DNA of 51,411 nucleotides from assembly GCA_018303885.1 (NCBI GenBank), contig JAGVXG010000002.1, forward strand, positions 1 to 51,411. Reading direction: 5' to 3'. A program made the position numbers and the translations under genes. The stretch is from Candidatus Pacearchaeota archaeon (GTDB lineage: Archaea; Nanobdellota; Nanobdellia; Pacearchaeales; GW2011-AR1). How positions within the stretch are numbered: position 1 is the stretch's first letter; each line of letters starts with the position of its first letter. Positions 22,024 to 24,755 of this stretch are shown here, in pieces. Under the pieces are notes generated by a model that saw nothing but the letters and a program-made list of their open reading frames with translations, made no database searches and was not told the DNA's origin.

Positions 22024-22034
22024 AAATTTATAAA
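22024..22034 (+). promoter_or_regulatory. TATA box of the uL1-uL10-P1 operon
   Basis: AAATTTATAAA is centred near 22029. The expected start about 25 nt downstream (near 22054) leaves a leader of about 68 nt, unlike the leaderless genes elsewhere in this window. Confidence 0.5.
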
Positions 22035-22064
22035 CTATCTTTACGCTGATTTTTTACCGCATAA

Positions 22065-22110
22065 CTACATCGCCAGAAGATAGATTCTATGCTTTAGGCG
22101 CATAATGTAG
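22065..22110 (+). promoter_or_regulatory. Long hairpin in the uL1 mRNA leader, candidate uL1 autoregulatory site
   Basis: CTACAT (22065-22070) pairs with ATGTAG (22105-22110). CGCC (22071-22074) pairs with GGCG (22097-22100). GAAG (22076-22079) pairs with CTTT (22092-22095, one G-U). ATAG (22080-22083) pairs with CTAT (22087-22090) around a 3-nt loop. Only an A-A mismatch, one bulged G and an asymmetric CATA bulge interrupt it. It fills most of the predicted leader. uL1 represses its own mRNA by rRNA mimicry in bacteria and methanogens, which makes this a fair candidate. Confidence 0.5.
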
Positions 22111-22122
22111 AAGGTAAAAAAA

Positions 22123-22752
22123 ATGGAACTAAAGAAAGACTTAGAAAAAGCTTTAATCGAGCTTAGAAAAAGTGAAGAAAGGAAATTCAATCAGACAGTA
22201 GATCTAATCATAAATCTACAAAAATTTGATCCTAAAAAGAACCAGATAAATCTTTTTGTAGCTGTTCCTTTTAAAATAAAGGACAAGAAAATATGCGCTT
22301 TTCTCGAAGCGAAAAAAGAAAATGTTGAAACGATAACGCCGGAACAGTTCAAGAAATACAATGATAAAAAAGAACTAAAAAAACTTGTAAAAAAATTTGA
22401 TTTCTTTATTGCACAGGCAAGCGTGATGCCAAAAGTAGCTACGGTTTTCGGGAAAATTCTGGGACCGGCAGGAAAAATGCCCTCTCCACAATTAGGTATT
22501 GTAACAGATGCCAATGAAAAAGAAATAGAAGAAGTAAAGAAAAAAGTGGAAAATAGTGTAAAGGTAAGAATAAGAGAACCCAGTATCAAACTTGCAATTG
22601 GAAAACAAAACATGAAGGATTCTGAGATTATAGAAAATATTATTGGTGTTTACAATGCTGTCCTGAAAGTTTTGCCTAAGGAAATTGAAAATGTCAAAAA
22701 TATAGAAGTGAAATTCACGATGACTAAACCGCAAAAAATAAAAATAAGATAA
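22123..22752 (+). CDS. rpl1: Large-subunit ribosomal protein uL1
   Basis: 209 aa. It builds the L1 stalk, which handles E-site tRNA, and can bind its own mRNA. It is recognised by the conserved segment FGKILGPAGKMPSPQLG (about residues 110-126), followed by the second half of domain I (KVRIREPSIKLAIGKQ). It heads the operon uL1-uL10-P1 and is preceded by a structured leader. Confidence 0.95.
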   Translation: MELKKDLEKALIELRKSEERKFNQTVDLIINLQKFDPKKNQINLFVAVPFKIKDKKICAFLEAKKENVETITPEQFKKYNDKKELKKLVKKFDFFIAQASVMPKVATVFGKILGPAGKMPSPQLGIVTDANEKEIEEVKKKVENSVKVRIREPSIKLAIGKQNMKDSEIIENIIGVYNAVLKVLPKEIENVKNIEVKFTMTKPQKIKIR

Positions 22753-22770: not shown

Positions 22771-23769
22771 ATGAAAAGCAAAAAGGATAATAAACAAACT
22801 CACGTGTCAAAGAAAAAAATAGAAGGACTTTCAGAGCTCACTAAACTAGCAAAAGAAAGCAGAACAATTTTGGTTGCTTCTATAAAAAACATTCCTTTGT
22901 CTCAATATCAAGAAATCTCAAAAAAACTTAGAGGAAAAGCGATAGTAAAGGTTCCGAAGAAGAGCATTATTTTTAGGACATTGGATTCTTTAGGGAAAGA
23001 ATCTACAGAAGGATTTAGAGAGAAAATTGAAGAGAGCACTGCGATTTTATTTTCAGATATGGATGCATTCGAGCTTGCGGCAGAGCTGGTAAACAAAAGA
23101 AGTCCTGTAAAGGCAAAGTCTGGACAAGAAGCTCCTTCAGACATAGAGATTCCGGCTGGGCCAACTGAACTTGTTCCTGGGCCAGCGATATCTGAACTCG
23201 GGGCTTTGGGAATTCAAATTCAAATAGATAAGGGAAAAATTAACATAAAGGAACCAAAGGTAATTGTTAAGAAGGGAGAAAAAATTTCTGCAAACGCCGC
23301 AGATATCATGAATAAGCTCGGCATAAAACCTTTTTTAGTGGGTTTTGTTCCTCTAGCGGCTTTTGACACAAAAGAAAAAAAAGCATATTTAGAAATCCAA
23401 ATAGACATAGAAGGAACTGTAAGTGAAATGAAATCTTTATACATGAAAGCCCTTTCTTTTGCAGTTGAAATCAGCTATGCTTCAGAAGACACAATTAAAT
23501 TCCTGATTGGAAAAGCTGGAAGATATGGAAAGGTTTTGGAGAAGTTCGCTGGAACTGCTTCGAAAAGTAATACAGATGAATTAAAGGAAGAAACTGTTAC
23601 AAAAGAAAATAAAGTTAATGATAAAATCGAACAGGATTTAGAATTTAATGATTTAGGGGTAGGCAGTGAGGGTGGTGGTGAAATAGCAAATGTTCAAGAA
23701 TCTGAATTAAAAGATGAAGTCCAGGAAAATAAATCAAATAATAAAATTGACAGGGAGGAAAATAAATAA
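22771..23769 (+). CDS. rplP0: Large-subunit ribosomal protein uL10 (P0)
   Basis: 332 aa. The rRNA-binding part is at about 20-130. The archaeal insertion domain follows with PAGPTELVPGPAISELGALGIQ and KGEKISANAADIMNKLGI, then the helical spine that carries P1 dimers (about 205-275). The C-terminal 55 residues are acidic and Asn/Lys rich and lack the ALFG-type end usual in archaeal P0; that motif occurs only in P1 here. It is separated from P1 by a single base. Confidence 0.93.
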   Translation: MKSKKDNKQTHVSKKKIEGLSELTKLAKESRTILVASIKNIPLSQYQEISKKLRGKAIVKVPKKSIIFRTLDSLGKESTEGFREKIEESTAILFSDMDAFELAAELVNKRSPVKAKSGQEAPSDIEIPAGPTELVPGPAISELGALGIQIQIDKGKINIKEPKVIVKKGEKISANAADIMNKLGIKPFLVGFVPLAAFDTKEKKAYLEIQIDIEGTVSEMKSLYMKALSFAVEISYASEDTIKFLIGKAGRYGKVLEKFAGTASKSNTDELKEETVTKENKVNDKIEQDLEFNDLGVGSEGGGEIANVQESELKDEVQENKSNNKIDREENK

Positions 23770-23770
23770 A

Positions 23771-24067
23771 ATGGAAAATGTATATGCTGCGCTTTTGCTG
23801 CACAAACTAGGAAAAGATGTAAACGAGGAAAACATCAACAAAGTTTTGACAGCTGCCGGTGCACATACTGAAGAGGCTAAAGTGAAATCTTTAGTAGCAA
23901 GCCTAAAGGGTGTTGACATCGACAAAGAACTTGAAAGCGCAAGCCTTATGACAGCAGCTCCTGCAGCAGGCGCACACGCTGGCCACGCAGAAGAAAAAAA
24001 GGAAGAAAAGCCTAAAGAAGAAAAGCATGCGGCTGCAGCAGAAGGATTGTCGGCGTTGTTTGGGTAG
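23771..24067 (+). CDS. rpl12: Large-subunit ribosomal protein P1 (L12 stalk)
   Basis: 98 aa. A helical dimerisation domain (MENVYAALLLHKLGKDVNEE) is followed by an Ala/Gly hinge and an acidic Lys/Glu segment. It ends in EGLSALFG, the motif that contacts translation factors. An upstream in-frame ATG exists within the uL10 coding region, but the start at 23771 matches the family and lies one base after the uL10 stop. It is the last gene of the operon. Confidence 0.95.
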   Translation: MENVYAALLLHKLGKDVNEENINKVLTAAGAHTEEAKVKSLVASLKGVDIDKELESASLMTAAPAAGAHAGHAEEKKEEKPKEEKHAAAAEGLSALFG

Positions 24068-24563: not shown

Positions 24564-24698
24564 GCCTCCGTCGCATAATGGTATTGCGTCGGTCTTGAGA
24601 TGTAAGGAACCAAGGTTCCTTGACAATCAACCTCCTTTTCTAGGAGTCAAGCAAACCGAGCCCTTACGGGCCTCCAGGTTCGATTCCTGGCGGGGGCG
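24564..24698 (+). tRNA. tRNA-Ser (anticodon TGA) with a 54-nt intron
   Basis: Class II tRNA. Acceptor GCCTCCG/CGGGGGC with discriminator G. D arm GCA/TGC. Anticodon stem TCGGT/ACCGA. Long variable arm GCCC/GGGC. T arm CCAGG/CCTGG around TTCGATT. Removing 24600-24653 leaves the 7-nt loop CTTGAGA, giving anticodon TGA; a one-base shift of the boundaries yields the same product. In the precursor, CTTGA pairs with TCAAG (24647-24651), forming the central helix of a bulge-helix-bulge splice site. Confidence 0.88.
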
Positions 24699-24755
24699 TT
24701 CCTCTGGCATCAAATTTCACAATAACTTTATATATAATAATTCATTTTTTTCCTT

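Follow-up and report, generated by a model that had tools for sequence, protein, structure and literature searches.

A conserved leader hairpin with a permuted uL1-type loop, a candidate uL1 feedback site before the uL1-uL10-P1 operon of a Nanobdellota archaeon

In its complexes with RNA, the ribosomal protein uL1 recognises an asymmetric loop. The known sites follow a common design, in which helix I leads to a GA strand, then to helix II, then to a longer strand ending in A and back to helix I. The classic form, GUGAAG-GA-GGC..GCC-GAGAAA-CUUCAC, stands near codon 10 in most uL1 coding regions of methanogens and of genomes labelled Thermococci, while the E. coli rplK leader shows GGG-GA-GCCUC uca GAGGC-GUUAUUA-CCC. 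Feedback by uL1 through mimics in mRNA is established: its autoregulation by mimicry of rRNA, in Bacteria and in Archaea, is reviewed together with the recognition of the loop in PMC10931766, which agrees with what an earlier note on the present DNA had said of methanogens and bacteria. Few cis-regulatory RNAs are known from archaea. Leaders for eL15, S15 and L4 have been found there by covariation (Eckert and Weinberg 2020, PMC7247131), and uL1 is absent from the table of new motifs of that paper. Our literature searches found no cis-regulatory RNA described for DPANN.

We studied the leader of the uL1 operon (in the order uL1, uL10, P1) in the 720-kb genome of a DPANN archaeon of the phylum Nanobdellota (Table 1); "the window" is the whole stretch of DNA that was analysed, 51,411 nucleotides. 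The earlier note had described an extended stem at 22065-22110 with an asymmetric CATA bulge and had proposed it as a candidate uL1 feedback site. The stem is indeed present: the leader folds with -17.9 kcal/mol (z = -3.65), and none of 200 shuffles folded as well. The bulge (22101-22104) exists in this sequence, but the relatives show it to be an internal loop in which AU faces CAUAAU, as many of them carry CAUAG, which cannot pair with AU. Moreover, a third, outer helix closes the structure. The apical UUCUA(U/G)G (22084-22091) is conserved in the family, and pairing offers no explanation for it; from its letters, UUCU could pair with AGGA or AGAA of the Shine-Dalgarno strand. A transcription terminator is ruled out, the hairpin being followed by A and not by U.

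Table 1. Features of the uL1 operon and of its leader (positions in the window; + is the forward strand)
Feature	Position	Strand	Basis or remark
TATA box TTTATAAA, uL1 operon promoter	22027..22034	+	sequence; TATA-to-core-helix spacing in relatives
Predicted transcription start (5' end of outer helix)	22055..22056	+	deduced from the TATA-to-ATG distance in leaderless genes
Outer helix, 5' arm UACC	22055..22058	+	pairs with 22113-22116; MFE, arm-swapping permutation test
uL1-type asymmetric loop, long strand GCAUAA	22059..22064	+	in relatives frequently GAUUGAA; final A invariant
Core helix A, 5' strand CUAC	22065..22068	+	pairs with 22107-22110; covariation, closing C-G invariant
Internal loop, short strand AU	22069..22070	+	conserved in alignment
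Helix B, 5' strand	22071..22079	+	held-out set: all 9 pairs vary on both sides
Region of the apical loop, UUCUA(U/G)G conserved	22080..22091	+	alignment
Helix B, 3' strand	22092..22100	+	covariation
Internal loop, long strand CAUAAU (includes CATA)	22101..22106	+	alignment
Core helix A, 3' strand GUAG	22107..22110	+	covariation
uL1-type loop, two-nucleotide strand AA	22111..22112	+	GA in most relatives
Shine-Dalgarno-like AAGGU, overlapping the motif	22111..22115	+	GGAGGU in many relatives; relatives' 16S ends CACCUCC-like
Outer helix, 3' arm GGUA	22113..22116	+	MFE, arm-swapping permutation test
uL1 gene	22123..22752	+	PF00687, E 3.5e-34
uL10 gene	22771..23769	+	PF00466, PF17777
P1-type acidic protein gene	23771..24067	+	PF00428

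uL1 was found in 107 of the 112 genomes searched, and the DNA upstream of it was read for all 107. Nearly all the uL1 leaders of the same family carry the motif, in a fixed order: outer helix, loop of the GAUUGAA type, C(U/C)A(C/U), AU, helix B and UUCUA apex, then helix B again, CAUAA(U), helix A, GAGGU and the start codon. When 52 leaders are aligned, 13 pairs emerge, and compensatory changes are seen at 10 of these; from the aligned leaders we built a covariance model. It gives a single strong match in the genome under study (70 bits, the next one scoring 12) and matches in 138 of the 180 genomes of the family; about a quarter of the family has none, many of these genomes being incomplete and some having a shortened hairpin. 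Seventy-seven matches come from genomes held out of model building, and uL1 lies directly downstream on the same strand in 76 of them. The remaining one, which scores 21 bits and is the second match of its genome, is likely a false positive. In the held-out alignment, which was fitted to the model in a way that favours structure, with an effect size far above the controls, 91.5% of cells are paired against 66% after shuffling, changes on both sides of a pair occur in 264 cells against 69.5, and the covariation score is 0.69 against 0.20 (at most 0.13 for slid versions).

As the intervening loop varies in length, the outer helix was tested by swapping its 3' arms between species. Its pairs read UACC/GGUA here and ACC/GGU, GUC/GAC, AUC/GAU, GCC/GGC or CCG/CGG in other species. 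The score is 209 in the first family set against 117 +/- 9.8 when swapped (maximum of 2000 shuffles: 153), and 293 in the held-out set against 164 +/- 12 (maximum 204); support outside the family is weak (76 against 57 +/- 7.7). The hairpin is a real, conserved RNA structure in which the core helix, the second helix and the outer helix all covary. The earlier note had made its reading depend on pairing conserved in relatives, and covariation there is strong, in the held-out ones too. The A which precedes helix A and the C-G pair which closes this helix are invariant, in 52 of 52 aligned leaders and in 76 of 76 held-out ones. Most loci outside the family keep helix A, in many cases in the form of a short stem (e.g. 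CUGC-UUAG-GCAG, then GAGG).

Several loci carry additional sequences around the hairpin. Palindromic insertions, short and rich in A and T (CAGAAATTTTTAATTTCTG is an example), are found near it in L008, L037, L049 and L054; they part the hairpin from the uL1 start, where a relic start codon is sometimes left, and in L049 an insertion interrupts the hairpin itself at its internal loop, both arms being kept. In L013 a duplicate of the N-terminus of uL1 (MEIQEQLKNALVELRKSR...), ended by a stop of its own, stands about 120 nt before uL1; it follows the hairpin and precedes the true start of uL1, and this start has a second GGAGG. In the operon itself, the conserved TMG of the C-terminal part of uL1 (22714-22737) is replaced by TMT or TMS in most of the family, and a tRNA-like sequence which seems to bear an intron follows the operon (24565-24699).

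As for the promoter, a TTTATA stands 28-29 nt before the ATG of many other genes in the window, that is, they look leaderless; the earlier note had said so of nearly all other genes. Calibrated on this spacing, the uL1 leader would be about 67 nt long. The TATA box precedes the core helix by 38 nt here, and mostly by 34-41 nt in the family, with a sharp peak at 37-38. As this distance is nearly constant in the relatives, the start of the uL1 transcript is probably that of the outer helix, near 22055, so that the motif would form the 5' end of the mRNA; a start downstream of the stem, the case which the earlier note had held against its own reading, does not fit this spacing. Some members of the class (L104, L107, L108 and L109) have no hairpin upstream of uL1, and in L108 and L109 a TATA-like box near the ATG suggests a leaderless gene which has lost its leader.

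The part of the leader which uL1 would recognise is probably a loop outside the CATA bulge, formed by the outer helix, GCAUAA opposite AA, and the C-G-closed core helix. The leader does carry a uL1-type loop, and recognition would probably take place there, outside the stem which the earlier note had named. Two short helices flank a strand of two nucleotides (AA here, usually GA) opposite a strand of 3-7 nt which ends in A beside the C-G closing pair, and this asymmetric loop of the GA type stands upstream of uL1 in its own predicted transcript. The path of the chain goes from helix II to the longer strand, to helix I with its hairpin, to the GA strand and back to helix II. Since the pieces of the loop are the same while the hairpin caps the other helix (the H76-like one in the leader, the H77-like one in the known uL1 sites), the leader is a circular permutation of a uL1 site. 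Its strands are not connected as in H76-H77 of 23S rRNA; such connectivity is typical of the known sites examined, and local recognition does not need it. The comparison with 23S rRNA which the earlier note had proposed shows that the leader shares the local motif of the uL1 site and connects its strands in the reverse order.

We counted this topology with a strict descriptor, to be taken as a rough yardstick because it misses many 23S stalks as well as the E. coli site (with a helix I of only 3 pairs): the permuted loop occurs in 41 of 61 family leaders against 2.5 expected from shuffling, in 20 of 46 leaders outside the family against 1.8 expected, and at 1 of 66 other gene starts of the window, while the classic topology occurs in 1 of 61 family leaders against 1.2 expected. 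That the leader or the early coding region holds a uL1 site of the classic, non-permuted kind was rejected, the counts in the family not exceeding chance. Long sequence identity with 23S rRNA was likewise rejected as the basis of the mimicry: it is modest, and the best match of the leader in 23S falls on the L1 stalk in some genomes, such as G012 (13/15), but not in most. Hence the mimicry would consist of a structure and a few invariant nucleotides. The span of the 23S gene of the genome under study (L001, contig C4) exceeds the region matched by the model by about 1.2 kb and holds an open frame of 100 amino acids, which suggests an intron or an insertion.

By analogy with the known sites, we consider it likely that the leader serves as an autogenous binding site for uL1 (an r-protein leader), circularly permuted, and a candidate for translational feedback. 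The hairpin could instead be the target of another regulator, either uL10-P1, encoded in the same operon, or a K-turn binder like L7Ae, as regulation by L7Ae through K-turns is known in archaea (PMC5539422). This is unlikely: the loop resembles uL1 sites, and uL1 is the next gene downstream in 76 of the 76 true held-out cases. A K-turn (a bulge of 3 nt with tandem G-A pairs) was also rejected for the loop itself, since G stands directly 5' of the invariant A in only 10 of 58 leaders and GA faces GA in only 5 of 58.

One may also think of an element acting without any protein, which would tune the access to the Shine-Dalgarno sequence (e.g. with temperature) or protect the 5' end of the mRNA. 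The hairpin does lie at the predicted 5' end, with the Shine-Dalgarno strand within the outer helix, but we hold this explanation to be quite improbable, as it leaves unexplained the GA strand and the two invariant features, the unpaired A and the C-G closing pair, and likewise the conserved AU x CAUAAU loop, the UUCU apex and the specificity for one gene. Finally, the position directly downstream of the TATA box would suit an inverted repeat acting in the DNA, as the operator of a transcription factor. Against this speak the frequent G-U pairs (28 of 77 at one pair, for instance), the abundance of double changes, the asymmetry of the loops and a conservation which is specific to one strand; we give such an operator hardly any credit.

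Feedback by uL1 is well supported by the anatomy of the leader, from which we infer the binding of uL1 and the block of ribosome loading. When more uL1 is made than 23S rRNA takes up, free uL1 would bind the leader and close the outer helix, and thereby lock or hide the Shine-Dalgarno strand, so that less uL1, uL10 and P1 would be translated. The Shine-Dalgarno sequence, which reads AAGGU here and GGAGGU in many leaders, is made up of the GA strand together with the outer helix's 3' arm. The assembly of our genome contains no 16S gene, so the anti-Shine-Dalgarno sequence was taken from relatives, whose 16S rRNA ends in CACCUCC or similar. No more than 20 nt separate helix A from the ATG in 38 of the 58 family leaders; in the other 20 the gap is 22-119 nt, and blocking of the Shine-Dalgarno sequence can therefore not be the whole mechanism everywhere. 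Leaders with a far ATG would need another route, for example a block of loading at the 5' end or destabilisation of the mRNA.

A search of Rfam 15 with the leader gave no family match at gathering score. In the non-subscription papers that were searched we found no description of such a uL1 leader, and an earlier report may exist elsewhere. What is new is the permuted wiring, the site at the 5' end fused with the Shine-Dalgarno sequence and its occurrence in a large DPANN group. We rather favour the view that the permuted 5'-end motif is the ancestral autoregulatory device of the uL1 operon in a large DPANN group, the Nanobdellota, independent of the classic in-gene site of methanogens; it would be the first r-protein leader described in that group. 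If uL1 does use such a permuted copy of its site, it would read a local loop and not the order of the chain, and one and the same feedback would, in a clean case, have evolved independently with different wiring.

The methanogen site belongs to the same gene as here and has the same loop, with GA opposite GAGAAA, helices closed by G-C pairs and an A before C. However, it lies in the coding region and bears its hairpin on the H77-like helix, whereas the present site is in the 5' leader, is permuted and overlaps the Shine-Dalgarno sequence. The E. coli rplK-rplA site is likewise a leader hairpin, with the loop GGG-GA-GCC / GGC-GUUAUUA-CCC, but it has the classic topology and precedes uL11, while ours is permuted and precedes uL1-uL10-P1. 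H76-H77 of 23S rRNA (the L1 stalk), in this genome and in its relatives, has the strands GUAG-GA(G) and AAUA-CUAC, as in the loop of the leader, where their order is reversed and there is little other sequence identity. The leaders of eL15, S15 and L4 are, like that of uL1, archaeal r-protein leaders found by covariation, with different ligands and structures.
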